The translations under genes were made by a program, and so were the position numbers. Shown piece by piece: positions 10,725 to 29,909 of a DNA stretch of 64,000 nt (its first letter is position 1; every line of letters begins with the position of its first letter). The notes beneath the pieces are model-generated. The model was not told the origin of the DNA, did not search any database, and saw only the letters and a list, made by a program, of their open reading frames with translations. Source of the DNA: Pseudomonadota bacterium. GTDB taxonomy: Bacteria; Desulfobacterota; Binatia; Binatales; Binataceae. The DNA lies in assembly GCA_021324885.1 (NCBI GenBank), contig JAJPIF010000028.1, positions 124,001 through 188,000 on the forward strand, written 5' to 3'.

Positions 10725-11651
10725 ATGTCATTACAACTGATCCCGCCCGACGTTAATATCGATTTTGTCGGCCGGCGGAAGTTTTTCGTTATGCTCTCGA
10801 CCGCGATCAACATCGCGGCAATCCTTCTGCTCATCTTCAAGGGCCTCAACTATGGTGTCGATTTCGCCGGCGGGACCCTGGTTCAACTGCGGGTTAATCA
10901 CCAGACCACCAGCAACGACCTGCGCCATGCCCTGGGTCCGCTCGATTTGGGCGAAATCACGATTCAGGACTTCGGCCAGAAGAATCAGTATCTGCTCCGA
11001 TTCGAAAAGCTCAGCAGTCTCAAAGGCTTTACCCCGCGGCTCAACGGAGCCCTGGAGAAATACTATGGCCAGGGGAATGTCGAAGTCCTTCGCGTCGAGA
11101 GCGTAGGTGCCAAGGTCGGCCGGGATTTGCGCCGCGACGCGATCGGCGCCGTCATTGTTGCCACCATCTTCATGGGCTGTTTTATTGCCTGGCAATTCCG
11201 CAACGTCAGTTGGAGCTTCGGCGCCGGCGCGGTAATCGCCCTGGTCCACGATATTCTCGTGGTGGTTGGAGCCCTTGTCATCTCACAGTTGCAGTTTGAC
11301 CTGACCACCCTCGCCGCCCTGCTGACGGTGATCGGCTATTCCGTCCACGACACCATCATTGTGTCGGACCGCATCCGCGAGGACGCGCTCAAGCGCAGGC
11401 GTGAATCGTTGCCCCAGATCATGAATCGGGCCATCAATGAGACCCTGTCGCGTACAATCCTGACCTCCGGCGTCGCGATTTTCGTCCTGATCGCGTTGCT
11501 TGCACTGGGTGGTCCGATCCTGCGACCCTCCGCCTTTACCCTGCTCATTGGATTCATCACCGGGACCTACTCGTCGATCTATATTGCGGGCCCGGTCGTG
11601 CTGTTCTGGGAGCGGCGGGTCAAAATCAAAGCCCTGCCCCGCGCCGCATGA
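10725..11651 (+). CDS. secF: Protein translocase subunit SecF
   Basis: 308 residues; ATG 10725 has a GAGG about seven bases upstream. SecF, with SecD, uses the proton gradient to pull exported proteins across the inner membrane. The first membrane helix follows IDFVGRRKFFVMLS, the periplasmic start has the signature YGVDFAGGTLVQLRV, and the C-terminal half has five more helices including the conserved VIGYSVHDTIIVSDRIRED. The length is normal for SecF. Unusually no secD or yajC lies upstream: the gene before it is a zinc-ribbon protein. It overlaps the next gene by four bases (ATGA), showing translational coupling. Confidence 0.95.
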   Translation: MSLQLIPPDVNIDFVGRRKFFVMLSTAINIAAILLLIFKGLNYGVDFAGGTLVQLRVNHQTTSNDLRHALGPLDLGEITIQDFGQKNQYLLRFEKLSSLKGFTPRLNGALEKYYGQGNVEVLRVESVGAKVGRDLRRDAIGAVIVATIFMGCFIAWQFRNVSWSFGAGAVIALVHDILVVVGALVISQLQFDLTTLAALLTVIGYSVHDTIIVSDRIREDALKRRRESLPQIMNRAINETLSRTILTSGVAIFVLIALLALGGPILRPSAFTLLIGFITGTYSSIYIAGPVVLFWERRVKIKALPRAA

Positions 11652-11968
11652 CAGCCGGGTCGGTCCTGCTACAGACTTCGCGGGGAAGCTATTGCTTAAG
11701 TCTCGTCGAACACAGCGGGCCGCCGTCCGGACCGTGGATTCTGACGCTTTCAATGGAGCATGCCGGCGGATTGGAGAAATTCGCTTTTCGCTGTCTGCTT
11801 GGTCAGCCCTTAATTCGGACGGCCGGACTCAACGCGCCCTCCGCAGCTTGCGCGCGGCTGGCGAGCTGGCTTGAGCGGGATTTCGAAGCTGTCCGCGAAG
11901 CCGCCCTCAAATCGATCCGGTCCGAGCGGCGCCTGGCCGAGTTCAACCTGGACGAGTCGATTCCCTGA
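11648..11968 (+). CDS. Hypothetical protein coupled to secF
   Basis: 106 residues, ATG 11648 overlapping the secF stop. The N-terminal half is beta-rich (SVLLQTSRGSYCLSLVEHSG, PWILTLSMEHAGG) and the C-terminal half helical (ARLASWLERDFEAVREAALK). No signal peptide, membrane helix or known motif is seen. The tight overlap argues that it is a real gene made together with SecF. Confidence 0.6.
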   Translation: MTAGSVLLQTSRGSYCLSLVEHSGPPSGPWILTLSMEHAGGLEKFAFRCLLGQPLIRTAGLNAPSAACARLASWLERDFEAVREAALKSIRSERRLAEFNLDESIP

Positions 11969-12183
11969 GCGTGAGGCAGTTCCGGTCCCGCTATCGCTTG
12001 CCATTACCGCAGCTGCTTTTGCGCAAGCTCAAGGCTTAGCGTATCTAATCAGGTCGGGATCCGGCTGGTGTAGGAACCGGTTTTGACTGGATGGTCAGGG
12101 CGCTCTGTGAGAAGCGGGTGGTGGTCGAGGATTTACCTTTAGTCTCAATGGAAAAAGTCAGCGTTTGGGAAGGTCGATTCCGT

Positions 12184-12211
12184 TTGACTCGGAGACGGAT
12201 GGCTCTATAAT
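12184..12211 (+). promoter_or_regulatory. Sigma70-type promoter of the isc operon
   Basis: TTGACT at 12184-12189 and a perfect TATAAT at 12206-12211 are separated by 16 bases. This lies 72 bases upstream of the iscS start, in a roughly 315-base region (11969-12283) that otherwise holds no gene I can support. Confidence 0.65.
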
Positions 12212-12213
12212 AT

Positions 12214-12224
12214 ACCTACTAGGT
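12214..12224 (+). promoter_or_regulatory. Palindromic candidate operator at the isc start site
   Basis: ACCTA-C-TAGGT is a perfect 11-base palindrome beginning three bases after the -10 box, where transcription should start. A repressor bound here would block the isc promoter. An Rrf2-type (IscR-like) regulator is the natural candidate, but no such gene is in the window. Confidence 0.45.
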
Positions 12225-12283
12225 CCACTAATGCGTGATTGATCCGCCCAGCGGACCGAGGTAAACGGACCGAAGGTAAGATG

Positions 12284-13504
12284 ATGGTCAAGCTGCCGAT
12301 TTACATGGACAATCATGCGACGACTCCGATGGATCCTCGGGTGGTCGACGCGATGCTGCCGTATTTCACGGAGAAATTTGGCAATGCCGCCAGCCGCAAC
12401 CACAGTTTCGGATGGGTGGCGGAGGAAGGCGTGGACAAGGCGCGCAATCAGATCGCGTCACTGATCAACGCCAAATCCAAGGAGATTATCTTCACCAGCG
12501 GGGCCACCGAATCGGACAACCTCGCGATTAAGGGTGTGGTCGAATTTTACAAAGACAAGGGTAATCACGTCATTACCTGCGTGACCGAGCACAAGGCGGT
12601 GCTGGACAGTTGCAAGGCGCTGGAAAGGGCGGGGAAGGCTGCTGTCACCTATCTGCCGGTGGATAAGTACGGGATGGTTGATCCCGACGACGTGCGCAAG
12701 GCGATCACGGACAAGACCGTGCTGATCACGATCATGGCGGCCAACAACGAGATCGGCACAATTCATCCGATCGCCGAGATAGGCCGCATTGCCAAGGAAA
12801 AGGGTGTGCTGTTTCACTGCGACGCGACCCAGGGGGTGGGCAAGATTCCGGTGGACGTGGAGAAGATGGGGATCGACCTGCTTTCGGCCAGCGCGCACAA
12901 AATTTATGGACCCAAGGGCGTTGGGATCCTGTATGTACGTTCCAAGGGACCGCGCGTGCGGCTGACGCCGATTATCGACGGCGGCGGGCATGAGCGGGGC
13001 CTGCGCTCGGGAACCCTCAACGTGCCGGGCATCGTCGGGTTTGGCGCGGCCTGCGAGATCGCGGGCCGGGAAATGGAACAGGAGGCCCAACGCCTGCGCG
13101 GCTTGCGCGACCAGTTGCAGGCGAACCTTTTCGAGCGGCTGGACGAGGTTTTCCTCAACGGCCATCCGGTGCAGCGCTTGCCCGGAAATCTCAACGTCAG
13201 CTTTGCGTATGTCGAAGGCGAGTCGCTGCTGATGGGCATCAAGGACGTGGCCGTCAGTTCCGGTTCGGCCTGCACTTCGGCGACCCTGGAGCCGTCCTAT
13301 GTGATACGGGCGCTGGGGACGGACGAGGAGTTGGCGCACAGTTCGATTCGTTTCGGGCTGGGGCGCTTCAATACTGCGGAGGAAGTGGATTTCGTGGCGC
13401 AGCGGGTAACCGATGAAGTCAGACGCTTGCGCGACATGTCGCCGCTTTATGAGATGGCGAAAGAGGGAATCGACCTGAAATCGGTTGAATGGAAGCGCGA
13501 CTAG
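12284..13504 (+). CDS. iscS: Cysteine desulfurase IscS
   Basis: 406 residues from ATG 12284; AAGG lies seven bases upstream, and ATG 12281 is an alternative. A PLP enzyme that takes sulfur from cysteine for cluster assembly on IscU and for tRNA thiolation. It begins [17 protein letters not shown] as in the family. The PLP lysine is K206 in [14 protein letters not shown], and the sulfur-carrying cysteine is about residue 330 in [16 protein letters not shown] on the mobile loop. First gene of iscS-iscU-iscA-hscB-hscA-iscX, probably controlled by the promoter and palindrome just upstream. Confidence 0.96.
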
Positions 13505-13555
13505 CGGGCGCAACAAACGCGACGCAGCAACGTCTTAGTTTGAGGATTAGGGATC

Positions 13556-13978
13556 ATGGCTTACTCCACCAAGGTTTTGGACCACTACAATAATCCACGC
13601 AACGTCGGCAGCTTTCCCAAGGACGCCGTCGATGTGGGCACCGGCGTGGTGGGCGCGCCGGAGTGTGGCGACGTAATGAAGTTGCAGCTCAAGATCAACC
13701 AGGAAGGCGTGATCGAGGACGCCCGCTTCAAGACCTTTGGCTGCGGCAGCGCCATCGCCAGTTCCAGCTACGTGACGGAACTGGTCAAGGGCAAGCGCAT
13801 CGAGGAGGCGATGGCGATCAAGAACAGCGCGATCGTCCAGGAACTCAATCTGCCGCCGGTCAAGATTCATTGTTCGGTCCTGGCCGAGGACGCCATCAAG
13901 GCCGCGATCAACGACTGGAAAACCAAGCACGAGGGGCGGCAGCCGCAGTCGGATCAGGGCAAGGCGGCGCAGGGATAG
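13556..13978 (+). CDS. iscU: Iron-sulfur cluster scaffold IscU
   Basis: 140 residues. The scaffold on which IscS builds the 2Fe-2S cluster before HscA/HscB release it. All three cluster cysteines are in the canonical places: C37 in GAPECGDV, C63 in TFGCGSAI and C106 in VKIHCSVLAEDA. The HscA-recognition motif LPPVK precedes C106. The C-terminal tail of about 15 residues (Gln/Lys-rich) is slightly longer than in E. coli. It lies 51 bases behind iscS. Confidence 0.96.
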   Translation: MAYSTKVLDHYNNPRNVGSFPKDAVDVGTGVVGAPECGDVMKLQLKINQEGVIEDARFKTFGCGSAIASSSYVTELVKGKRIEEAMAIKNSAIVQELNLPPVKIHCSVLAEDAIKAAINDWKTKHEGRQPQSDQGKAAQG

Positions 13979-13991
13979 GGAGGCGAAGCGA

Positions 13992-14306
13992 ATGATCTCG
14001 CTGTCCGAGAACGCGGCGAGCAAAATCAAACAACTGGTAGTGGAGAAACCCGGCGCCGGTTTGCGCGTTAAGGTGGTTGGGGGCGGATGTTCGGGGCTGC
14101 AGTACCGGATGGAAATCGATTGCGCTAAGGAGCGGGACAAGGTCTTCGAACGCGACGGCGCGCAATTGATCGTGGACAAAAAGAGCTTCCTTTATCTGAA
14201 CGGGTCCGAACTGGACTACGCCGAAGAACTCATGTCCTCGGGATTCAGACTGGTTAATCCCAACGTCAAACGCTCCTGCGGTTGCGGAGAGTCCTTCACG
14301 GTATGA
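13992..14306 (+). CDS. iscA: A-type iron-sulfur carrier IscA
   Basis: 104 residues, 13 bases behind iscU. A-type carrier that accepts or delivers Fe-S clusters, particularly 4Fe-4S. The three cluster ligands are C33 (GGGCSGLQY) and C96/C98 in RSCGCGESFTV at the very C-terminus. Its position in the operon supports IscA rather than ErpA or SufA. Confidence 0.92.
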   Translation: MISLSENAASKIKQLVVEKPGAGLRVKVVGGGCSGLQYRMEIDCAKERDKVFERDGAQLIVDKKSFLYLNGSELDYAEELMSSGFRLVNPNVKRSCGCGESFTV

Positions 14307-14327
14307 GCGGCAGCTCAACCTTGCGCA

Positions 14328-14984
14328 TTGAGCAAGATGCAGGCGCGATGTCCATCATGCGCGCGGCTTCAACAGCCGCGGCTTTTTTGTTCAGATTGCG
14401 GCGCGCCGCTTGCGGTCGAGCTTGACTATTTCGATGTTCTCGGCATTCCCAGACAACTGACGCTCGATCCCGCCCAACTCGAAGCGCTCTATCACGACCT
14501 GGGGCGGCGGGTTCACCCCGACCGTTTCGCCAACCAGCCCGCTCCGGTCCGCAACGCCAGTCTGGCGGCGACGGCGCTGCTGACGCGGGCGTTTCGGACT
14601 TTGCGCGATCCTTTCAGCCGGGGACTTTATTGGCTGGAATTGCACGGCGAAAAGTTGGCGCGGGACAATAAAGAGGTGCCGCCTGAACTCGCCGAATTCA
14701 TTTTCGAGGTACAGGAAAGCCTGGCGGAATTGCAGGCTGGTCAAGTTGACGGAAACGATAGCGACCACGTTAAAAAGCGTGTTTTGTCCGCTAAATCTGA
14801 CATTCAAAGCCTGTTGAAAAATGCTTTTGCCCAACTTGACCAGAATTACGCAGATTGGGACAATCGCGTAAACCATCAAGCTGACCTGATTGTCAAACTT
14901 AAAAGCGTCCTTTCCCGTATCGCCTATCTCCGGACCTTGGAGAGGGACGTCGGTCGGGTATTGGAGCAACACGATTTGAGATAG
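14328..14984 (+). CDS. hscB: Co-chaperone HscB with N-terminal zinc ribbon
   Basis: Up to 218 residues (TTG 14328; ATG 14337 is an alternative that keeps all the cysteines). J-domain co-chaperone that brings IscU to HscA and stimulates its ATPase. HPD is at 63-65 (RRVHPDRF), preceded by YFDVLGI as in HscB, and the C-terminal helical domain binds IscU. The odd part is the extension at 8-24 with two C-x2-C knuckles (CPSC and CSDC), absent from E. coli HscB but like the tetracysteine ribbon of mitochondrial HSCB. It lies between iscA and hscA. Confidence 0.9.
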
Positions 14985-15016
14985 TTTTGGGGCTTTTCAC
15001 CCCAAATGGAACATTT

Positions 15017-16879
15017 ATGGCAGTCATTTTCGGAATCGACCTGGGAACTACCAACAGCTTGATCGCGGTGATGGAGGAAGGGCGGCCGCGAATCATCGCG
15101 GATCCGAAATCCGGCGATACCATGCTGCCCTCGGTCGTGGCATTGCTTGCCAACGGCAGGGTCGAAGTGGGGAAGAGCGCGATTGAACTGGAACCGCATC
15201 TTAACGTCGAGCGCGGCGGCACAATCGTCCCTGCCGGCTTGGGACGCGATGACGAGGGCGTGGTGGTACGCTCGGTCAAGCGTTACATGGGCCTGGGCGG
15301 CGATGAGGTCGCGCAAGAGGACCGTCATCGTTATGCTTTTGCGGATTTCGGCGGGCCGGTAGTGCGCTTCAAAGTTGGGCAGCGGACGTTTACACCGCCC
15401 CAAATTTCGGCAGAAATTCTCCGCACTCTCAAAGGCTGGGGCGAGGCCGCCACTGGCGAGAAGGTCGAGCGAGTGGTCATCACGGTGCCGGCTTATTTCA
15501 ATGATGGACAGCGTCAGGCGACCAAGGACGCAGGCCGTTTGGCGGGTCTGGAGGTCGTCCGGCTGGTCAACGAGCCCACCGCGGCGTCGCTGGCATATGG
15601 GTTGCATTCGATGGCGAGTGGTCGGGTGGCGGTGTATGACTTCGGTGGCGGCACCTTCGACATCTCCATCCTTAACGTTAAGGAAGGCATTTTTGAAGTT
15701 CTGGCAACCAGTGGTGACACCCATCTGGGTGGCGACGATATCGATTTGGCAGTGGCGAACCTGATGTTAAACCAGTTGCCCGAAGAACTCAGGCGCAACC
15801 GCCAGGTATGGAACACGGCGCGGCAGGTCGCCGAGGCGGCCAAAAAGCGCCTGAGCGCCGAAGTCGAGACCGGGATGGAACTGAGGCTGCCGCATCTCAC
15901 GGTATCGCGCCTCCTCAGCCGTCAGGAACTGGAGGAACTGGCACAGCCGTTGGTCACCCGCACCATTGATTGCTGTGCCCGCGCTCTCAAGGACGCCAAC
16001 TTGACCCCTGCCGAAATCGACGCTGTCGTGCTGGTGGGAGGATCGACGCGGATGCCGTTGGTGCGCCGGCGCGTGCAGTCGTTTTTCGACCGCGAGCCGC
16101 TGTGTTCGCTCGACCCTGACGAAGTTGTGGCGCTGGGGGCGAGTGTTCAAGCTGGCGTGCTGATGGGCAAAAGCGGGGATATGCTTTTGCTCGACGTGGT
16201 CCCGCTGTCGCTGGGTATTGAAAGTATGGGCGGAGTCATGGAACGGATTATCCATCGCAACACCACCATTCCGACCAGCGCCTGTGAGCGCTTTACCAAT
16301 GCAGTGGACAATCAGACGCATGTGGATATCCATGTGCTCCAGGGCGAGCGCGAACTAGCCAAAGACTGCCGGAGTCTGGCACGTTTCAAACTGGGTCCGA
16401 TTGAGCCGCAGCCGGCGGGGATGGCGCGGATCGAAGTCACGTTTCTGATTGATGCCAATGGTATTCTCAACGTTACGGCGCGCGACGAGCGCACCGGGCG
16501 CGAGCATTCCATTGATGTCAAGCCGAGCTACGGCCTTACGGACGAGGAAATCGAGCGGATGCTGGAGGAAGCAATCGATTTGGGTGAAGAGGATCTCACG
16601 CAGCGCTTGCTGATCCAGGCGCGCAATGATGCGGCCGCGATTCTCGCCGCCCTTAGCAAACAGTTGAACGAATATGGAGCCCTTCTGGATCAAGCGGAGC
16701 GTGACGCAATCCAGGCGTTGGCCGCGCGGCTTGAAACCGCGCGCCAGAGCAATGACCGCGAACTGATTGCGTCGCTGGTCGAACAACTCAACGAGATGAC
16801 GACCCCGTTTGCCCATCGCATTATGGATGAGGCGATCAAGGCGGCGTTGGAAAAAAGAACCGTTGAAGAGGTCTCCTGA
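15017..16879 (+). CDS. hscA: Hsp70-type chaperone HscA
   Basis: 620 residues from ATG 15017, close to the 616 of E. coli HscA; the frame is open ten codons further but the family starts here ([19 protein letters not shown]). ATP-dependent chaperone specialised for IscU. Nucleotide domain motifs: [22 protein letters not shown] and [14 protein letters not shown]. The substrate domain follows from about residue 385 ([20 protein letters not shown]), ending in a helical lid. Operon position next to hscB separates it from DnaK. Confidence 0.95.
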
Positions 16880-18089: not shown

Positions 18090-18770
18090 ATGAAGACGCG
18101 GATTCATGGATTGTTGGCGGCAGTGGCGTTTGCCTCGGCGATTTTGGTCATGCCGCTGAAGGCCCGGGCTCATGATTTCGGCGGATGGCATCACGATCAC
18201 GGTAATCATTGGGGCTGGTACAAACATCACGGTTATGGTTGTGGAGTGGGTTATGCGAACCCCGGCTATGGTTATGGCGGCTATCCGGGCTGGCATCATC
18301 ATCATGATTGGGACGACGATGACCAAGGGTACGGCGGCTTCGGCTATGGGGGCCCAGGCTACGGTTACCCCAACGCGTACTACGGTTATGGCGGGTACCC
18401 TTACAGCGGAACTCCAATGATTGCTCCTCCGACTTTGGGGGTCTATCAGCCCAACTACGCGCCGATGGGCAACCTCGGAAACATGGGAAGGCTGATGCGC
18501 CGCCAGCAGTTGGCCAGTCAGAGGTTGAGCGCGAATCAAGCGCTGTACCAGGCTGCGGTGTCGCAGGGCAATTATAGGCTGGCCAACAAGGCCGCTGCTC
18601 ATATCCAGAAACAAGCTAATATCCTGAACGGAACCAACGCGATTCTGGGCGGTGCCGGGCCTTATTCCAACTATGGTGTACCGGCCTATGGCGCGCCCGC
18701 TTACTACGGTCAGCCCGGCTACGGGCCAGCCGCTTCTCCGCTCGGCGCAATCCTCCAGATGTTGCCGTGA
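18090..18770 (+). CDS. Exported His/Gly/Tyr-rich protein
   Basis: 226 residues with a signal peptide (MKTRIHGLLAAVAFASAILV, cleavage near ARAHD). The first part of the mature protein is extremely rich in His, Gly, Tyr and Trp: repeated GYG and HHH runs, then PGYGYGGYPGWHHHHDWDDD. A short helical segment (MRRQQLASQRLSANQALYQA) follows, then a second Gly/Tyr/Pro tail. Such composition suggests a low-complexity surface or periplasmic protein that could bind metal through the His clusters. No named family is recognised. An AGGAGAG about ten bases upstream supports the start. Confidence 0.65.
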   Translation: MKTRIHGLLAAVAFASAILVMPLKARAHDFGGWHHDHGNHWGWYKHHGYGCGVGYANPGYGYGGYPGWHHHHDWDDDDQGYGGFGYGGPGYGYPNAYYGYGGYPYSGTPMIAPPTLGVYQPNYAPMGNLGNMGRLMRRQQLASQRLSANQALYQAAVSQGNYRLANKAAAHIQKQANILNGTNAILGGAGPYSNYGVPAYGAPAYYGQPGYGPAASPLGAILQMLP

Positions 18771-18879: not shown

Positions 18880-19590
18880 ATGAAGAAATCAATTGCGCTG
18901 CTTGCCGTTTTGATTATACGCTGTATCGGTCTCGCGCCTGTGTTTGCGCAGACCGAAGACTTCCAACTGCTGTGCAAGCCCAACCTGGGCGAATACAAAA
19001 TCGAACTGACGAGGTACGAGGAATCGGGTCGTTACCAGCAGGATATCGCCGCGGCGGTTGCTCCGGCTGCAGCTTACCTGGCACAGCGGGTCCGGCAGTC
19101 AGGCAAGCTCGCGATCGTTTTGGACATCGACGAGACCTCGCTTTCCAACTGGCCGGTGATCAAGGCCGACGATTTTGGTTTCATTCCCCAAGGTCCCTGC
19201 GACCTTGCTGCCGACGGCCTTCCGGCGGGGGCCTGCGGCTGGATCGACTGGATTAGTCAGGCGCGCGACAAAGCTATTGCGCCGACATTGGAACTCTACC
19301 GTGAGGCGCGACACTACAAAGCCGCGGTCTTTTTCGTCAGCGGGCGTCCCGAGTTCCTGCGCCAGGCCACACAACGTAATTTGCGCAATGCCGGATACGA
19401 GAATTGGAACGGCCTAGTGCTGAAGACCGGCAAGGAGTCCGTGAGCGCTTTCAAAACCTCTGCCCGCCGTAAGCTTGCCGCGCAGGGCTACGATATCGTG
19501 CTGAACGTGGGCGATCAGGACAGCGACCTGGTCGGCGGCTACGCCGATCGGACCTTCAAAATCCCCAATCCTTTCTACTATATTCCCTGA
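18880..19590 (+). CDS. HAD-family acid phosphatase (class B/IIIB type), exported
   Basis: 236 residues with a signal peptide (ALLAVLIIRCIGLAPVFAQ). The HAD nucleophile motif is D82-x-D84 in VLDIDETSLSNW. Motif II is VFFVSGRPEF, and motif IV is NVGDQDSDLVGG, where the two Asp hold Mg. This is the acid phosphatase subfamily IIIB that removes phosphate from nucleotides or phosphoesters outside the cytoplasm. The length is normal. It lies behind a hairpin, so it probably has its own promoter. Confidence 0.88.
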   Translation: MKKSIALLAVLIIRCIGLAPVFAQTEDFQLLCKPNLGEYKIELTRYEESGRYQQDIAAAVAPAAAYLAQRVRQSGKLAIVLDIDETSLSNWPVIKADDFGFIPQGPCDLAADGLPAGACGWIDWISQARDKAIAPTLELYREARHYKAAVFFVSGRPEFLRQATQRNLRNAGYENWNGLVLKTGKESVSAFKTSARRKLAAQGYDIVLNVGDQDSDLVGGYADRTFKIPNPFYYIP

Positions 19591-19675
19591 AGTGCGCTCG
19601 GGGGTGGTCGATTGGACAAAACGCCATGATGACATGGAAATCGAAGGCACTTTGGCCAGGTTGTGTTGAGTCCTG

Positions 19676-20434
19676 ATGTCCGGCTTGGATAACCGTGTGC
19701 TGGTTGAAATCCACGGTTTGACAAAAACCTACGGCAGCTTCGAGGCGGTCAAGCAGCTTGACCTGACGGTTGCGTCGGCGCAAATCTTTGCGCTTCTTGG
19801 CCCCAATGGCGCGGGAAAGACCACCACGATCAGAATCCTGATGGGCATCCTGGCGCCGACCTCCGGCTGGGCTCGAATCGCGGGACTGGACTGTTTCAAG
19901 GATCGCGTAGAGGTTAAACGGCGGGTCGGATACCTGCCCGATGAGCCGGTTTTCTACGATTATCTGCGCGGCAGCGAGATCATCCGCTTTGCCGGCGAAA
20001 TGCACGGGCTGAGCGCGCCTGAGATAAAACGGCGCGCGCGGCCGCTGGTGGAACAGCTGGAATTTGCCGACGCGTTGGATGAGTTCGCGGCCAATTACTC
20101 GCGCGGCATGAAGAAGAAACTCGCCCTGACCTGCGCGATGCTCCATGATCCGGTCCTGCTCATTCTCGACGAGCCGACCAGCGGCCTCGACCCGTTTGCT
20201 ACACGCGTACTCCACGGGATCCTGCGCGACAAAGCGGCTCAGGGCAGGACGATCTTTTTCAGCACGCATCTACTGGATCAGGCGGAAAGGCTCTGTACCC
20301 AATTGGCAATTATGGCCCGCGGCAGCCTGGTGGCCAACGGCACGCTGGCGGAGTTGCGCGGCCGGGTCTCCCATGACAGCTCGCTTGAAGAGATCTTTTT
20401 TTCTCTGGCGGGCAACTCCGAGTCCGCGGATTAA
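19676..20434 (+). CDS. ABC transporter ATP-binding protein
   Basis: 252 residues from ATG 19676. Walker A GPNGAGKTTT, signature YSRGMKKKLALTCAML (an unusual YSRGM in place of LSGGQ, common in ABC-2 exporters), Walker B LLILDEPTSGLDP and the H-loop STHLLDQ. It belongs to the ABC-2/CcmA-like export group and partners the permease-protease fusion two bases downstream. Substrate unknown; drug, peptide or lipid export are all possible. Confidence 0.93.
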   Translation: MSGLDNRVLVEIHGLTKTYGSFEAVKQLDLTVASAQIFALLGPNGAGKTTTIRILMGILAPTSGWARIAGLDCFKDRVEVKRRVGYLPDEPVFYDYLRGSEIIRFAGEMHGLSAPEIKRRARPLVEQLEFADALDEFAANYSRGMKKKLALTCAMLHDPVLLILDEPTSGLDPFATRVLHGILRDKAAQGRTIFFSTHLLDQAERLCTQLAIMARGSLVANGTLAELRGRVSHDSSLEEIFFSLAGNSESAD

Positions 20435-20436
20435 CC

Positions 20437-23058
20437 GTGAATAACAGCCAACCCCCGGGTAGTGTGCGCGCGATTTGGATTGTCGGCCGCCTGGCGCTGC
20501 GGCGCCAGATCAACCGATGGCTGACCTACCGCTTTGGGCGCCGGACTCAGCCATTCGGTGCCAAACGTTCGGGGACCCGCACCAAGTCGGGACGCGGTTC
20601 GCTTTTCGGCGCTGTGCTGTTCCTGCTGATGGTGGTTTCCGGCGTGGTGGTCACTTCGGCCGGAATCGTCAGAATTTCTCAGATAACCCAGCATATCCGC
20701 CAGCCTCGCGACAAATTCGTCGTCACGCCCTACACCTACGCCAGCCTCAATCAGGTCGACAAGGCGCTGCGCCAATTGAAAGGCCTTAAGGATCCGCGCC
20801 AGCGCAAAAGGCTGCAGGCCATGTGGGAGCGGGACGTGGAAGGCCTATTGGCTGGCGAGGTTCGCTGGGGCGCCTACACCGACGCCGAGCAGAGCGTCCG
20901 CATCCGTCAAATGGAGGAGATCTTCCGCTACCAGGGCGTGTCGGGCTTCGCCCCGGCGCAAACCGACGCGTTTCACGTCTCGGCGGCGACATTGCCGCGT
21001 GCGCCCGCAGCACGGGCCGTTTTCATCGGGATCCTCAGCCTTCTCTTTGTCCTGTGGATTCCGCTGAGCGTTTCGCTGGCGCTGGGCTTCAACAACAAGG
21101 ATTTGAGTCAGGTGGAGTGGAGTCTGGAATGGCTCTACATTTTTCCGGTGCCGGCGCGCGCGTTGTTCCTGTCCAGGCTGCTGGTTTACTCAATTTTCGA
21201 CCAGATGGTCTGGTGGTTGTTGCTGCCTTTTTCGCTGTTTGCGTTTATCGCGGCCGGTTACGGCTGGGCCGCGATGCCGCTGGGGGTCGCCGCAACGATT
21301 TACCTGGCCCTGCTGGCGGGATCGATTAGCACGGTTGCCGAAGTGATTTTGCGCAAATATCTGAGTCTGCATCGGCTGAAAAACGCCCAGGCTCTGTTCA
21401 CCGTGCTCGGCACCCTGTGCCTGCTGATTTTCTATGCCGCGATGTTCTCCACTCCCATCGTGGACCTGCTGGCACGTATAGCCGGCTCCAATCCGGTGCT
21501 GCTCGCCTGCAATCCCATCGCTTTGGCGCTCGGTTCGGGCAGCGCCGGACTGCCATCATGGCGGTGGCTTGGATTGATCCTGGCGCTGACGGGAGGAGTT
21601 TTGGCTGCGATGCTGCTTGCGACGGCCGCCAGCGAATGGGTTACGGCCGACGGACTGGTCAGGGCGGGCGGACCTTATCAAGGGAGCAGGCAGGGCGGCG
21701 AAGGGCGCATTTACGACGGCTGGTTGCGAGGAATCGCCGGGCGGGAGCTGCTTTTGCTGCGGCGCGATCGAAACCTGCTGGTCCAGGTCCTGATTGTTCC
21801 GCTACTTATCCCCGCCTACTACCTGTTCGTTGATCCCCATTTGCGCTGGGTTCTGACCGGAAATTTCCGGCGCGCCGCGATGGTGTCATTCCTGGTCGGC
21901 GCATACTCCTTTGTCAGCAGCGCGATCCCGCTTTTGACCCGCGAGAACAAAACCTTGTGGTTCCTGTATTCGCTGCCGCGCAGCCTGATTTCGATCCTGA
22001 TCGATAAGACGCTCTTCTGGGCGGCCTTCGGCGTCCTTTACGGCGCGATCGTGCTGACGTTGTTGTTCCATTTCAGCCCAAACCTGCATGTGACCTCGTG
22101 GATAAGCCTGCTGCTGGTCTTTTACGGCATCGCGCTGTACGCCTTTATCGCCTCGGGAATCGGTATCCTGGCCGCCGACGTATTTGAAACCGAACCGCGC
22201 ACGCAACTGAAAGTAAGTCTGCTCTACCTGTACTTCGCGCTGACAGGGATGTACGCCGCCATCTTCTATTCGATTTCCCTGTGGACGACGATGGCCCAGC
22301 TGGTCCTTTCCACGCTGCTGGCTTTCGCTTTGTGGCAGAAGGTCAGGGACAGTGCTCCCTATCTGCTGGACCCGACTCAATGGCCGCCGCGCATCATAAG
22401 CCTGGCGGATGGACTGGTTGCGGCTCTGGCTTTTTTCGTGGCGCAACCCCTGTTTCAGGCGCTGTTCCAGGCCGCTACCACGCTGCCTGTCACGGTGCAG
22501 ATCACCGCCTCGTACCTGATGGCGGGGCTAAGTGTCGGCGCCGCTGTTCTGATTGTCTTGTGGATACAAAACGTTCCCGATCTTTGGCGACAGCTCGGGC
22601 TTATGATCGCCGATAAAAGGCGCACCGTGCGGGCCGCGATGCGGGGCGTGCTTTGGGGAGGACTCGCCGCGCTCGGAGCGCTCGCCTACCTTCAGATCCT
22701 CGACCGGTTTCCGCAGTGGCATGTTTGGAAGCAGGACGCTGAGTTCACCTCATTCCTGACGCCTGGCGCGCAACCCCTGTGGGTCTGGCTGCTGCTGGTG
22801 GTGGCGGCTCCAGTGATTGAAGAATTCCTGTTCCGCGGCCTGATTTTCAATGGTTTGCGCCGCACCACCGGGCCAATACCGGCGATTATTGGCAGCGCTG
22901 CTTTGTTCGCGCTGGTTCATCCGCCGATCTCCGTAATCGCGGTCTTCGGTTTGGGGATCGCCGCCGCGATCAGCCTTGAACAGTCGGGCCTGCTGCTGGC
23001 GCCGATCCTGGCGCATGCCGTTTACAACAGCTGTATGCTTTTGCTTAACCGGCTCTGA
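20437..23058 (+). CDS. ABC-2-type permease fused to CPBP intramembrane protease domain
   Basis: 873 residues from GTG 20437, two bases behind the ATPase gene. The N-terminal about 730 residues are a multi-helix membrane domain with a long extra-membrane loop after the first helix, of the ABC-2 permease kind. From about residue 760 the chain becomes a CPBP (Abi, CAAX-protease-like) domain: EEFLFRG near residue 795, a His in FALVHPP near 828 and HAVYNS near 861, the expected Glu-Glu, His and His-x3-Asn catalytic residues. The family includes prenyl-protein and bacteriocin-processing proteases. A permease and a protease in one chain suggests coupled processing and export. Confidence 0.8.
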   Translation: MNNSQPPGSVRAIWIVGRLALRRQINRWLTYRFGRRTQPFGAKRSGTRTKSGRGSLFGAVLFLLMVVSGVVVTSAGIVRISQITQHIRQPRDKFVVTPYTYASLNQVDKALRQLKGLKDPRQRKRLQAMWERDVEGLLAGEVRWGAYTDAEQSVRIRQMEEIFRYQGVSGFAPAQTDAFHVSAATLPRAPAARAVFIGILSLLFVLWIPLSVSLALGFNNKDLSQVEWSLEWLYIFPVPARALFLSRLLVYSIFDQMVWWLLLPFSLFAFIAAGYGWAAMPLGVAATIYLALLAGSISTVAEVILRKYLSLHRLKNAQALFTVLGTLCLLIFYAAMFSTPIVDLLARIAGSNPVLLACNPIALALGSGSAGLPSWRWLGLILALTGGVLAAMLLATAASEWVTADGLVRAGGPYQGSRQGGEGRIYDGWLRGIAGRELLLLRRDRNLLVQVLIVPLLIPAYYLFVDPHLRWVLTGNFRRAAMVSFLVGAYSFVSSAIPLLTRENKTLWFLYSLPRSLISILIDKTLFWAAFGVLYGAIVLTLLFHFSPNLHVTSWISLLLVFYGIALYAFIASGIGILAADVFETEPRTQLKVSLLYLYFALTGMYAAIFYSISLWTTMAQLVLSTLLAFALWQKVRDSAPYLLDPTQWPPRIISLADGLVAALAFFVAQPLFQALFQAATTLPVTVQITASYLMAGLSVGAAVLIVLWIQNVPDLWRQLGLMIADKRRTVRAAMRGVLWGGLAALGALAYLQILDRFPQWHVWKQDAEFTSFLTPGAQPLWVWLLLVVAAPVIEEFLFRGLIFNGLRRTTGPIPAIIGSAALFALVHPPISVIAVFGLGIAAAISLEQSGLLLAPILAHAVYNSCMLLLNRL

Positions 23059-23251: not shown

Positions 23252-24271
23252 ATGCAGATAGGTATGATCGGACTGGGACGGATGGGGGCCAATATGGTGC
23301 GGCGCCTCATGCGTGGCGGCCATCAATGCGTCGTGCACGACGTTTCAGCTGAAGCGGTGCGCGCTCTGGAACGCGAAGGCGCCAAAGGCTCGACTTCGTT
23401 GGGCGATTTCCTCGCGCAACTGACCAAACCGCGGGTGGTCTGGCTGATGGTTCCGGCGGCGGTTGTCGACTCGCAACTGGACCAACTGATCGGCAAGCTT
23501 TCGCCTGGCGATATCGTCGTGGACGGCGGCAACTCGTACTATCGCGACGATGTCGATCGCGCCAAACGACTGCAGCCTCACGGTATCCATTACGTCGATT
23601 GCGGAACCAGCGGCGGCGTCTGGGGGATGGAACGCGGCTATTGCCTGATGATCGGTGGCGAACCCGACGTGGTGCGCCATCTCGATCCGATTTTTGCCAC
23701 GCTCGCGCCCGGCGCCGGTTCGATCGAACGCACGCCCGGACGCGAGAAACTGGGCGGCACCGCGGAGCAGGGTTATCTCCATTGCGGGCCCAGCGGCGCC
23801 GGTCATTTCGTCAAAATGGTGCACAACGGGATCGAGTACGGTGTGATGGCGGCATACGCGGAGGGGCTTAATGTTTTGAAAAACGCGAACGCTGGAAAAC
23901 GCCAGCGCGCCGCCGACGCTGAAACGACCCCGCTGCGCAACCCCGAGTATTATCAGTATGACCTCAATCTTGCCGATATTGCGGAAGTCTGGAGGCGCGG
24001 CAGCGTGATCGCGTCGTGGCTGCTCGACCTGACGGCAGCCGCTCTTGCCGCAGACCCTGAGCTGGAGCGCTTTGCCGGGCGTGTGTCGGATTCGGGTGAA
24101 GGGCGCTGGACGATCGACGCCGCGATCGATGAAGGAGTGCCGGTCAACGTGCTTGCGATGGCTCTGTTCGAGCGCTTCAGCTCGCGCGGTGACGCCGACT
24201 TCCAGGACAAGCTGCTGTCGGCGATGAGATTCCAGTTCGGCGGCCATGTCGAGAAGGGTGGCAAGTCATGA
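23252..24271 (+). CDS. gnd: 6-phosphogluconate dehydrogenase, decarboxylating
   Basis: 339 residues, the short GndA/YqeC-like form rather than the about 470-residue E. coli type. Oxidises 6-phosphogluconate to ribulose 5-phosphate and CO2. Dinucleotide site [15 protein letters not shown], the signature [12 protein letters not shown], and the active-site block [18 protein letters not shown] with Lys, His and Asn. The short form usually prefers NAD over NADP. It is first in gnd-zwf-HAD-tal-pgi-rpe and overlaps zwf by four bases. Confidence 0.94.
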
Positions 24272-25647
24272 ATGAGGCGCGTTCCGACGCTCTGGCCTTT
24301 TTCGGGGCCACCGGCGATCTGGCCTACAAGAAGATCTTTCCCGCACTCCATGCGATGGCGCGGCGCGGCCATCTGAATTTTCCGGTGATCGGCGTGGCCA
24401 AGTCGGGATGGAATCTGGATCAGCTTCGCGCGCGCGCACGCGACAGCATCAAAAACCACGGCGGGGGCGTCGAGGAGGAGGCCTTCGCGGTTCTGCTCAA
24501 GCATCTGGATTACGTCGACGGCGACTATCGGGACGACGCGACCTACGCCGAATTGCGCAGGAAATTGGGCAAGGCCACCCACCCTGCGCATTACCTGGCG
24601 ATTCCGCCCAGCCTGTTCGCCACCGTGGTTGAAGGCCTGGCCAGGTCGGGTTGCGCCAAAAACGCGAGGCTGATCGTGGAAAAGCCGTTCGGACGCGATC
24701 TCCCTTCGGCCCGGGAATTGAACCGCATCATCCATACGGTTTTTCCAGAGGACGATGTTTATCGGATCGACCATTACCTGGGCAAAGAGCCGGTGCAGAA
24801 TCTGCTGCTGTTTCGCTTTGCCAACACTTTCCTGGAGCCGATCTGGAACCGCAATTATGTTGATAGCGTTCAGATCACTATGGCCGAGAGCTTTGGCGTG
24901 CAGGGCCGCGGCACCTTTTACGAAGAGGCCGGGGCGATTCGCGACGTCGTGCAGAACCATATGCTGCAGGTGGTAGGGTTCCTTGCGATGGAACCGCCGG
25001 TCACCACCTATCATGAATCGATCCGCGACGAACAGGTCAAAGTGTTTCGCGCGATTCGTCCGCTCAATCCCGAGGATTTGGTGCGCGGACAGTTCGAAGG
25101 TTATCGCAAAGAGCATGGGGTGGCGCCGAATTCGACGGTAGAAACCTTTGCTGCCGTCCGGCTGCATATCGATTCCTGGCGATGGGAGGACGTGCCGTTT
25201 TTTATTCGCGCCGGCAAGTGCCTGCCAGTAACTACCACCGAGGTCCTCGTCACGCTCAAGCGCCCGCCCTTGCGCAAGGTTGGCGATACCAACTATTTTC
25301 GCTTCCGCCTCAGCCCCGAGGTGATAATCGCGGTCGGGTCGCAGGTTAAAAGACCCGGCGAGCAGTGGGGAACCGAATCCACTGAACTGAAGGTGGTGCA
25401 GAACGCTCAGGGCGACCAGATGGATCCTTATGAGCGCCTGTTGAGCGACGCGATGGCCGGCGATGGGATGCTGTTCGCGCGCGAGGACGCGGTCGAAGCC
25501 GCATGGGCGGTGGTGCAACCGATTCTCGGCGACGTCACACCCGTCCATGAGTACAAACCCGGAACATGGGGTCCGCCGCAAGCCGAACGGCTCACACAGG
25601 ACGTCGGCGGATGGCACGATCCGGAGCAGCTATCGGACATGATGTGA
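24268..25647 (+). CDS. zwf: Glucose-6-phosphate 1-dehydrogenase
   Basis: 459 residues; ATG 24268 overlaps the gnd stop (ATGA). First enzyme of the oxidative pentose phosphate route, giving 6-phosphogluconolactone and NAD(P)H. N-terminal [17 protein letters not shown] is the dinucleotide site, [15 protein letters not shown] the coenzyme-side motif, and [13 protein letters not shown] holds the catalytic His and the substrate Lys. Slightly short at the C-terminus compared with about 490 residues. No lactonase gene (pgl) is next to it. Confidence 0.96.
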
Positions 25648-25707
25648 GCCGGGGTTATCAAAGATCAAGGCGGCGCGCGGCGCAACCAGGGCAGGAAAGA
25701 TGCGGCG

Positions 25708-26394
25708 ATGAGTGAAACGGCTCCCAAACGCGACCAACTGGTGTTTCTGCTCGACGTGGATAATACGCTGCTGAACAACGATCGTGTCGCAGAGGACCTC
25801 AAGCGGCATCTGACGCGCGCGGTGGGCAAAGAGCGCCAGGAACGTTACTGGGCGCTGTTTGAGCAACTGCGCCAGGAACTTGGATACGCCGACTACCTTG
25901 GGGCGTTGCAGCGCTACCGCGTCGAACATCAGCATGAGCCTCATCTGATCGAAGTTGCGCTTTATCTCACCAACTATCCCTTCGCCAACCGGCTCTATCC
26001 GGGATCGCTCGACGTGATCGAATACCTGTCCGGATTCGGCACGACGGTGATCCTGACCGACGGCGATGCGGTGTTTCAGCCGCGCAAGATCGAGCGTTCG
26101 GGACTGCTCGAAGCGGTGGAGGGCAGGGTGCTGCTCTACATTCATAAGGAGCAGGAGCTGGAATGGGTCGAGCGCAGGTTTCCGGCCGACCATTACGTGC
26201 TGATCGATGACAAGATTCGGATTCTGACGGCGGCCAAGAAAATCTGGGGCGAGCGGCTGACCACGGTTTTTCCGCGCCAAGGCCATTATGCGCTGGCTCC
26301 TGACGTAGCGAACTATCCCAAGGCGGACATCACTGTCGAGCGCATCAGCGACCTGGTCGGATATGACATCAGGAAGCTGCGCGGCGCCCGATGA
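25708..26394 (+). CDS. HAD-family hydrolase
   Basis: 228 residues. The HAD nucleophile motif is FLLDVDNTLLNND, motif II is VILTDGDAVFQ (Thr-Asp), and the last acidic motif is YVLIDDKIRI. A small helical cap lies between motifs I and II. It sits inside the pentose-phosphate operon, between zwf and tal, so it may be a sugar-phosphate phosphatase or repair enzyme for this pathway. The substrate cannot be read from the sequence. Confidence 0.85.
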   Translation: MSETAPKRDQLVFLLDVDNTLLNNDRVAEDLKRHLTRAVGKERQERYWALFEQLRQELGYADYLGALQRYRVEHQHEPHLIEVALYLTNYPFANRLYPGSLDVIEYLSGFGTTVILTDGDAVFQPRKIERSGLLEAVEGRVLLYIHKEQELEWVERRFPADHYVLIDDKIRILTAAKKIWGERLTTVFPRQGHYALAPDVANYPKADITVERISDLVGYDIRKLRGAR

Positions 26395-26403
26395 GGAGGC
26401 ACA

Positions 26404-27489
26404 ATGAAAGCAACGCAAAAGCTTCATGACGCGGGACAGAGCATTTGGCTCGACTTCATTACGCGCAATCTCGTGACCAGCGGCGGCCTGCGCCGTTACA
26501 TCGACGAATACTCAGTTACGGGACTTACCTCCAATCCGACCATTTTCGATAACGCCATTGGCAGCAGCGCCGACTATGACGAGGCAATTCGCAGCAAACA
26601 CGCGGCGGGTAAGAGCGGCGAGGCGCTGTTCTTCGAACTGGCTATAGAAGACTGCGGTGCGGCTGCGGACCTTTTCCGCCCGATCAATGAGCGCACCAAC
26701 CGCGTGGATGGATGGGTTTCGCTGGAGGTTTCGCCCAAGCTTGCCTACGACACTTCCAGCACCGTCGCGGCGGCCCGTGAACTGCACGCGCGGGCCAACC
26801 GGCCCAACCTGTTCATCAAGATTCCCGGCACGCGCGAAGGACTTCCCGCGATCGAGGAATCGATTTTCGCCGGTATTCCGATCAATGTCACTTTGCTGTT
26901 TTCGCGCGAGCAGTACCTGGCCGCGGCCAACGCCTACATGCGCGGAATCGAACGGCGCGTGGCCGCGGGACTCAACCCCTACGTGCCGTCGGTTGCGTCT
27001 GTGTTCATCAGCCGATGGGACGTGTTGGTGAATCGGAAAGTGCCCGAGTCGATGCACGATCGAATCGGAATTGCGATTGCCAAGCGTACGTACAGGGCCT
27101 ATCGCGAGTTGCTCGCCAGCGATCGATGGCTGCGGTTGATCAATTTCGGCGCCCGCTCCCAGCGTCTGCTGTGGGCCAGCACCGGCACCAAGGATCCCAA
27201 GGCGTCTGACGTGCTCTATGTCAGTTCGCTGGCCGCGCCCCATACCATCAACACGATGCCCGAGAAAACGCTCAAGGCGCTGGCCGACCATGGCAACGTC
27301 GGCGCGATGCTGCCGCATGATGGCGGAAACGCTGAGGAGGAACTTGCCGAATTCATCCGGGCCGGCATCGACCTCGACGCGGTGGCAGAGCAGTTGCAGC
27401 GCGAGGGCGCCGAGGCCTTCGTCAAGTCCTGGGACGAGCTGATGTCGCGCATCGAATCAAAAACCGCTCAGCTCAGGAAAGCCGGCTGA
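26404..27489 (+). CDS. tal: Transaldolase
   Basis: 361 residues, the longer type seen in cyanobacteria and actinobacteria. Transfers a dihydroxyacetone unit between sedoheptulose 7-phosphate and glyceraldehyde 3-phosphate. The Schiff-base lysine is in [18 protein letters not shown], preceded by [26 protein letters not shown] is the family N-terminal signature. Nine bases behind the HAD gene and 20 before pgi, so one operon. Confidence 0.93.
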
Positions 27490-27509
27490 TTCCGGCGAGG
27501 ACGGCAGCC

Positions 27510-29147
27510 ATGGCTGACACACTAGCGCTGACGCAGCGTCCGGCGTGGAAGGCGTTGAGCGAGCATTACCGGCAGATCCGCGACGTCCATTTGCGCACCC
27601 TGTTCGATCGAGACCCGCACCGCGGCGAGCGTTTCGCCGTGGAAGGCGCCGGACTGTACCTCGACTACTCCAAGCATCGGGTGACTGAGGACACGATGAG
27701 GCTGCTGTTCGATCTGGCGCGCGATTCGGGCTTGCGCGAGCGCATTGACGCGATGTTTGCGGGCGAGCGGATCAACATCACCGAAAATCGGGCCGTGCTG
27801 CACGTCGCCCTGCGCGCGCCGCGCGGCAGCTCGATCATGGTGGACGGCGAGAATGTCGTTCCCGCGGTGCACGCGGTGCTCGACCGGATGTCGGATTTCT
27901 CGCGGCGCATCCGCGACGGCTCGTGGAAGGGCCATACCGGAAAACGCATCCGCAACATTGTCAACGTCGGGATCGGCGGTTCTGATTTGGGGCCGGTGAT
28001 GGCGTACGAGGCGCTGCGTCATTATGCCGACCCGGCGCTGAATTGCCGCTTCGTATCCAACGTTGATGGGACCGATTTCGTGGTCGCGACTTCCGCCCTG
28101 GACCCGGCCGAGACGCTGTTCATCATCTCGTCCAAGACGTTCACGACGCTGGAAACGATGACCAACGCGCGGACGGCGCGGGAGTGGATACTTGGCGCAC
28201 TGCGCGATGATAACGCTATCGCGAAGCATTTCGTGGCGGTGTCGACCAACCGCGCCGAAGTAGCGAAATTCGGTATCGACACGCGCAACATGTTCGAGTT
28301 CTGGGACTGGGTCGGCGGGCGCTATTCGATGGATTCGGCGATCGGGCTTTCCACCATGATTGCTGTGGGGCCGGAGAATTTTCGCGCGATGCTCGACGGC
28401 TTCCATGCCGTTGACGAACATTTCCGCACCGCCCCGTTCGAGCGCAATCTGCCGGTGATAATGGGTCTGCTGACGGTCTGGTACAACGATTTTTTCGGCG
28501 CTCAAACAGTCGGCGTTTTTCCCTACGATCAGTATCTGAAGCGTTTTCCCGCCTACCTTCAACAGTTGACGATGGAGTCCAACGGCAAGCACGTCACTCT
28601 GCAGGGCCGGCATCTGGACTACCAGAGTGGACCGGTGTTCTGGGGCGAACCGGGTACCAACGGACAGCACTCCTTCTTCCAGTTGATCCATCAGGGTACC
28701 AAGCTGATTCCCGCCGACTTCATCGCGTTCTGCCGTCCGCTCAACCCGCTTGGGCGCCATCATGACCTGCTGATTGCCAATGTTATCGCGCAGGCCGAGG
28801 CGCTCGCTTTCGGCAAGACGCCCGAGCAGGTCAAGGCCGAGGGCACGCCCGAGTGGCTGGTGCCGCATCGCGTCTGCGAGGGAAACCGGCCGTCCTCCGT
28901 GATCATGGCCGATCAGCTCACCCCCGAGACTCTGGGCAAACTGGTGGCACTGTACGAGCACAGCGTTTTCACGCAGGGATGCATCTGGGAAATCGATTCC
29001 TTCGATCAATGGGGCGTGGAGTTGGGCAAAGTGCTCGCCCTCAAGATCATCCCCGAACTGGAAGCAGACACCGAACCCCAGTTGCATCATGACAGTTCGA
29101 CCAACGCCCTGATCAGACGCTACCGCGAACGGAGGAAGCCGAGTTGA
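27510..29147 (+). CDS. pgi: Glucose-6-phosphate isomerase
   Basis: 545 residues, normal for the long bacterial form. Interconverts glucose 6-phosphate and fructose 6-phosphate. Both PGI signatures are visible: a phosphate-binding [15 protein letters not shown] and the later [13 protein letters not shown] with the active-site His, plus [19 protein letters not shown]. Located between tal and rpe. Confidence 0.95.
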
Positions 29148-29207
29148 GTTTTGAATCCCTGCCTGCCGCTCCCCTCCAGGGAAGGAAGCAGAAACTGACG
29201 CCAGCCT

Positions 29208-29909
29208 ATGAACGCTAAGTCGGCGCGCTCAGTTCAGATCGCCCCCTCGATTCTGGCCGCTGATTTCAGCCGCCTGGGCGAGCAGGTTAACGAGTGCCTG
29301 GAGGCGGGTGTGAGGCGCATCCATATCGACGTAATGGACGGCCATTTTGTGCCCAATATCACCATGGGGCCGCTGGTCGTGGAAGCTCTGCGTCCGCTCG
29401 CCCAGCGCTTTAACGCCGTGATGGAGGTTCATCTAATGATCGAGAATCCCGACCTCTACCTGGCGGACTTCTCGCGCGCGGGCGCCAGCGCGATGACGGT
29501 CCATCTCGAAGCCTGCCCCCATCTGCATCGCACGGTGCACAATATCCGCTCGCTCAATGCGCAGCCGGGCGTGGCGCTCAACCCGGCGACGCCGCTGGTA
29601 ATGCTCGACGCGATTTTGCCCGAGATCGACGTCGCTTTGCTGATGTCGGTCGATCCCGGTTTTGGCGGTCAGAAGTTCATCGCTTCGACGATCGACAAGG
29701 TTGCGCGCCTGCGCCAGATCCTGATCGAGCGCAGCCTGGAGCGAATCGAAATCGAACTGGACGGCGGCGTGGGCGAGGAAAACATCGGGGAACTGGCGCG
29801 CGCCGGGATGACGATCGCGGTCGCTGGGACCTCGGTATTCGGCCGCCATCGCTCCATCACGGAAAACATCGCGTTCCTGCAAAGCGCCTGTGTGGCGGCG
29901 TTGGCCTGA
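29208..29909 (+). CDS. rpe: Ribulose-phosphate 3-epimerase
   Basis: 233 residues from ATG 29208. Epimerises ribulose 5-phosphate and xylulose 5-phosphate on a TIM barrel. IAPSILAADFSRLGEQ, HIDVMDGHFVPNITMG and VEVHLMIENP-like MEVHLMIENP carry the metal His/Asp residues; LMSVDPGFGGQKFI and the C-terminal VAGTSVF form the phosphate grip. Last gene of the pentose-phosphate run. Confidence 0.95.
   Translation: MNAKSARSVQIAPSILAADFSRLGEQVNECLEAGVRRIHIDVMDGHFVPNITMGPLVVEALRPLAQRFNAVMEVHLMIENPDLYLADFSRAGASAMTVHLEACPHLHRTVHNIRSLNAQPGVALNPATPLVMLDAILPEIDVALLMSVDPGFGGQKFIASTIDKVARLRQILIERSLERIEIELDGGVGEENIGELARAGMTIAVAGTSVFGRHRSITENIAFLQSACVAALA

Follow-up and report, generated by a model that had tools for sequence, protein, structure and literature searches.

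CAAX/CPBP proteases have been implicated in the processing of bacteriocins and peptide signals, and in export or immunity (PMC9298176), with the three motifs EExxxR, FxxxH and HxxxN being described as catalytic in papers on the family (PMC11980579, PMC9298176). Among the described examples, MrtX performs C-terminal sorting (PMC11980579), the CPBP-family enzyme MlrA of sphingomonads opens the ring of a cyclic peptide toxin (PMC9505733), and in the skf cluster the protease and the export/resistance genes are separate (PMC8172795). Some CPBP proteins act without catalysis, such as Abx1 and SpdC, which bind histidine kinases, with SpdC having none of the catalytic residues (both as quoted in PMC9298176). 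The joining of an ABC permease with a CPBP protease is also an architecture that has already been catalogued, as the NCBIfam family NF041647; what differs in the locus described here is the permease scaffold. A literature search gave no paper on an ABC permease–CPBP fusion of this kind.

The locus lies within a 64,000-nucleotide stretch of DNA from a soil-type bacterium, here called the window, for which a preliminary description had proposed that an ABC-2 permease is fused to a CAAX-protease-like domain in a single chain of 873 residues, next to its ATPase. The features to which we refer are the following.

18880-19590: acid phosphatase, upstream of the ATPase
19676..20434, + strand: ABC ATPase of the exporter, 252 aa (PF00005, E=9.4e-25)
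20437..23058, + strand: permease–CPBP fusion, 873 aa, with a GTG start 2 nt past the ATPase stop codon (orthologues in independent genomes)
20437..22356, + strand: double-length putative permease part, residues 1-640 (HMM of four fusions and profile-profile link to PF16949, ABC_tran_2)
20674..21021, + strand: stretch without hydrophobic character, residues ~80-195, which separates the first hydrophobic segment from the second (hydropathy profile; gap in comparison with unfused permeases)
22357..22401, + strand: conserved junction between permease and protease, residues 641-655, PYLLDP..PP (identity to other fusions)
22402..23055, + strand: CPBP / Rce1-like intramembrane glutamic protease domain, residues 656-873 (PF02517 at 779-865; NF041647 match at 655-871)
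22819..22836, + strand: catalytic motif EExxxR, E795, E796 and R800 (invariant in four fusions)
22906..22920, + strand: catalytic motif FxxxH, F824 and H828 (invariant in four fusions)
23014..23028, + strand: catalytic motif HxxxN, H860 and N864 (invariant in four fusions)

The fusion was found to be a single, genuine and conserved gene. Its 873-codon frame is uninterrupted, with no internal stop, bearing out the single chain of the preliminary description, and the opposite strand contains stops throughout the same region. Full-length fusions were also found in a genome of the same genus (G002, 65% identity, with record JAJPHZ010000022.1 having the locus with the same match), in a genome from another family of the same class (G064, 24% identity, together with the ATPase) and on a closed circular plasmid from Sphingomonas parapaucimobilis (WP_347091536.1, 23% identical), where the public annotation mentions a CPBP endopeptidase only and where the ATPase gene lies upstream, overlapping the fusion gene by 4 nt. 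Between the window and G002, dN/dS of the fusion was 0.23 overall, 0.15-0.29 per segment and 0.20 in the protease core, values that are approximate because synonymous change is high, and every segment of the fusion is under purifying selection. Since the fusion recurs in independent data and has low dN/dS, it is a maintained gene and no assembly join. That two genes would have been brought together artificially, by an assembly join, as the preliminary description had considered, or by readthrough of a frameshift, has no point in its favor and, with one open frame, orthologues in independent assemblies that include a complete plasmid and low dN/dS throughout, can be regarded as having a negligible probability.

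Across the genomes of the class and phylum and the plasmid records covered, the pair of ATPase and fusion is rare and patchy, and occurs in lineages that are far apart. The full fusion was present in 3 of 148 genomes of the class and in one of 72,556 plasmid records, while 395 genomes drawn from the phylum gave the window's own genome and, beyond that, solely the copy in G390, a genome of another class or order. That copy (L090:78-1547) is made up of pieces of ATPase and fusion, the permease having internal deletions and the protease being present as a fused remnant; on account of these deletions it was taken to be either decayed or mis-assembled and was rejected as an intact fusion. Five further genomes (G382, G421, G440, G167 and G340) had long frames ending in a CPBP domain, which were rejected as fusions because their upstream sequence reads as non-coding translation; these are probably stand-alone CPBP genes in GC-rich frames.

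The C-terminal part appears to be an intact CPBP protease. PF02517 was the single Pfam domain in the fusion, matching residues 779-865 with E=3.6e-19 and 69.3 bits compared with a curated cut-off of 22.4, and we placed the start of the protease at about residue 656, on the basis of the upstream hydrophobic segments and the NF041647 match, with the domain extending to the C-terminus. All seven catalytic residues (E795, E796, R800, F824, H828, H860 and N864) were present, in agreement with the complete set claimed at the outset and with the required EExxxR/His/His-x3-Asn geometry, and they were identical in all four fusions, at 23% overall identity. When the window protein is compared with the fusions of G064 and Sphingomonas, the protease core (residues 776-873) is 39-40% identical and is the best-conserved long region, with identity being only 16-25% in the loop, in either half of the permease and at the start of the CPBP domain. 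This conservation of the core and of the catalytic residues argues that proteolysis may indeed be used by the protein.

The nature of the remainder of the chain had to be argued indirectly, because no Pfam ABC-2 model matched residues 1-655, nor any of the four fusions, at E<=10; of the two domains that had been expected to be found by HMM, the protease was thus recovered and the ABC-2 permease was not. The PF16949 model likewise gave no match in the four fusions at E<=10, well short of its curated cut-off. An HMM built from the four fusion permease parts did, however, retrieve from the 395 phylum genomes a small number of permeases that are unfused, about 570 residues long and located beside an ATPase, one of them with E=2.6e-5, and these were unambiguous members of PF16949 (E<=1e-100). 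Profile-profile comparison of the fusions with these permeases gave a probability of 89% and E=2.2e-6 over 293 columns, using small alignments, and delimited fusion residues ~229-536 as the region of remote homology; EWL..PV..LF and RD...Q motifs were common to both groups in the alignment. Together with the adjoining ATPase, the remote match suggests that the permease of the fusion is a remote relative, and not a member, of PF16949. The term ABC-2 permease used in the preliminary description is hence supported by ATPase adjacency and by this remote match, but not by any Pfam ABC-2 model. In the fusions, the first hydrophobic segments are separated by a hydrophilic loop of about 115 residues, which is absent in the unfused PF16949 relatives and which, judging from hydropathy only, would be extracytoplasmic. 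The junction was also distinctive, being 87% identical in G002 and 47% identical in each of the distant fusions, where the rest of the permease reaches only 16-25%, and its conservation argues that the joining of permease and protease probably goes back to a common ancestor and did not happen twice. Structure prediction of the fusion, based on an alignment of two sequences, gave a mean pLDDT of 34.9 and a pTM of 0.23, and a sequence search of the PDB with the fusion returned nothing at E<=1.

The ATPase has intact motifs (Walker A at residue 42, signature YSRGM at 141, Walker B at 161 and H-loop at 196) and is 82% identical to that of G002 and 46-47% identical to those of G064 and Sphingomonas. 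Its gene was located immediately upstream of the fusion in all four intact loci, either overlapping it or nearly touching it, which confirmed the ATPase that had been noticed next to the fusion in the window. The locus accordingly has what defines a two-gene ABC exporter, namely a motif-intact cognate ATPase beside the permease, in a pairing that is conserved. The closest match of the ATPase was the drug-efflux type DrrA, with 224 bits and thus below the cut-off of 312.

Comparison of three genomes showed the exporter pair of about 3.5 kb to be precisely present or absent between constant neighbors. In another genome of the same genus, G001, the upstream genes are as in the window up to the acid phosphatase, which is then directly followed by an FAD-dependent oxidase, the gene that in G002 follows the fusion, with the cassette in between; the two stretches compared are L080:4455-8150 in G001 and L050:10610-17900 in G002. 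As G001 cleanly lacks both genes between the same neighbors, ATPase and fusion form a stand-alone unit. The base composition of the cassette is that of its surroundings. The acid phosphatase was rejected as a functional partner and placed outside of the module, because it is retained in G001, where the exporter is missing, and is missing at the distant loci, where the exporter is present. Between the window and the G002 locus, for which downstream coverage was about 2.3 kb, only the phosphatase, ATPase and fusion were common (18967-23054 and 10874-15024, respectively).

No cargo gene had been recognized beside the fusion in the preliminary description, and collecting the same fusion from other genomes, as it had advised, upheld this, with no short open reading frame conserved around the pair, no precursor or modification gene of the kind found in bacteriocin/RiPP export clusters and no co-conserved cargo gene at the four loci. 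The gaps upstream of the pair measured 85 to 142 nt, and scanning the gaps around it gave two unconvincing, non-conserved frames only and no plausible conserved peptide. In G002 the 3' end of the fusion overlaps the end of the oxidase gene, leaving no room for a downstream cargo gene. Any evidence for a prenylated cargo, which had been suggested as one option, was likewise not found. With no conserved cargo gene at four loci and exactly the pair missing from G001, a biosynthetic cluster that also encodes a bacteriocin is disfavored; more likely are a stand-alone module for processing or clearance, or a cargo whose gene lies elsewhere. The cutting of a cargo during export, or self-immunity, as put forward in the preliminary description, may still apply.

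Some other genes were seen near the pair. In the window, positions 18090-18770 encode a protein that looks secreted and has a very high content of Gly, His and Tyr; it is partly conserved in G001 and has no Pfam match. Downstream, at 23252-29909, there is by the look of the sequence a compact run of sugar-phosphate genes (6-phosphogluconate dehydrogenase, glucose-6-phosphate dehydrogenase, HAD hydrolase, transaldolase, glucose-6-phosphate isomerase and ribulose-phosphate epimerase), followed by an MlaE-type permease at 30021. Directly upstream of the Sphingomonas pair (L074:5376-7410) are a TonB-like protein and two hypothetical proteins without Pfam matches, absent at the other loci.

Our preferred reading, which is tentative, is that the two genes may encode a self-contained ABC exporter with a permease that bears an active CPBP protease, cutting a membrane peptide and moving the product on, with the substrate provided in trans. 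An ATPase dimer would drive the double-length permease, the protease would act inside the bilayer on a peptide (or lipopeptide) that is hydrophobic or inserted in the membrane, and through the fusion the cut product would be handed over to the permease, which would move it out of the membrane, presumably in the direction of export. The substrate would come from elsewhere, either from a gene at another locus or by uptake from the outside. Catalytic invariance, conservation of core and junction, low dN/dS, the pairing with the ATPase, the absence from G001 and the copy on a Sphingomonas plasmid all speak for such cutting and export. The lack of a linked cargo gene together with the pattern of presence and absence points to a substrate in trans, and puts 'cut and pump' for clearance or protection slightly ahead of dedicated maturation of a single product. 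A broader proposal, which we consider doubtful, is that the fusion might represent a hitherto undescribed class of ABC machines having ATP-driven transport and intramembrane glutamic proteolysis in one chain, with the cut piece being passed into the translocation path, and serving as a mobile module for peptide clearance or resistance.

A dedicated maturation exporter, with the pair processing and secreting a single endogenous peptide or sorted protein whose gene lies elsewhere in the genome, similar to exporters that cleave leaders or tails, is rather unlikely but would agree with the constraint on the protease core. Maturation and sorting systems usually keep their target nearby, however, and at none of the four loci did a cargo gene co-occur; furthermore, no JDVT-CTERM target above cut-off was found in any of the four genomes. 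Such a role would have precedents among the CAAX proteases, which have been linked to the processing or export of bacteriocins and of signal peptides (PMC9298176) and, in the case of MrtX, to C-terminal sorting (PMC11980579). Unlikely, too, is a housekeeping exporter of a lipid, an ion or a small drug, to which the protease would have been added by chance or to clear misfolded or trapped membrane peptides. The resemblance of the ATPase to DrrA and the finding that unfused PF16949 permeases adjoin ATPases without any protease would fit with this, whereas the maintenance of the fusion over great divergence, with a conserved junction, and a module restricted to so few genomes of the class, unlike housekeeping genes, would not.

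Documented roles of CPBP proteins that are independent of catalysis (PMC9298176) count, by analogy, against a cut-and-export reading, and the CPBP part could correspondingly be a partner that regulates or stabilizes the transporter in the manner of Abx1 or SpdC. This we find quite improbable, as all catalytic residues are invariant in a chain that has mostly diverged to 16-25% identity, whereas SpdC is devoid of them (PMC9298176). Involvement in anti-phage defense was also considered and rejected, with the fusion having no PADLOC match and the matches of the ATPase looking generic.

Although CPBP proteases are common in prokaryotes, their function is mostly obscure, and a chain that ties one of them to an exporter makes coupling between cutting and transport directly testable, with the clean absence of the pair in G001 providing a natural comparison.

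With regard to known systems, the stand-alone proteases MrtX and MrtJ (myxosortases), SilX, SagE, MroQ and MlrA belong to the same protease family and have the same catalytic motifs as the fusion (PMC11980579, PMC9298176, PMC9505733), but they have other substrates and the fusion scores far below the family cut-offs. A JDVT-CTERM/MrtJ sorting system was thus rejected, there being no target and the match to the MrtJ model reaching 33 bits against a cut-off of 75. The MlrA, CAAX-protease and sorting precedents are analogies and not evidence about the window protein. The Sphingomonas locus, with the same fusion and ATPase, has different neighbors than the window. The PF16949 permeases at L091, L092 and L093 are likewise double-length and adjoin a similar ATPase (36-41% identical), but they lack both a protease domain and the loop by which the first hydrophobic segments are separated in the fusion, and they have other neighbors. 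All three have, upstream of permease and ATPase, a transglutaminase-like protein carrying a membrane anchor at its N-terminus, and at L091 and L092 (two of three) a PHP-like open reading frame was seen downstream, in what is apparently a recurring cluster. NF041647, finally, has the same order of parts, permease followed by CPBP in one chain, and was the best NCBIfam match for the protease part (fusion residues 655-871 to model positions 422-634 of 636). The fusion, however, scored 68.5 bits compared with the equivalog cut-off of 435, and the permease part of the model was unmatched; that part resembles the single-length PF12698 type, with a protein matching model positions 2-292 being PF12698 at E=1.5e-54, whereas the permease of the window is double-length and PF16949-like. 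As compared with the model itself, the window fusion thus appears to be a second permease/CPBP fusion on a scaffold different from that of NF041647, and the occurrence of the same domain pairing on two permease scaffolds suggests that the pairing has functional value.
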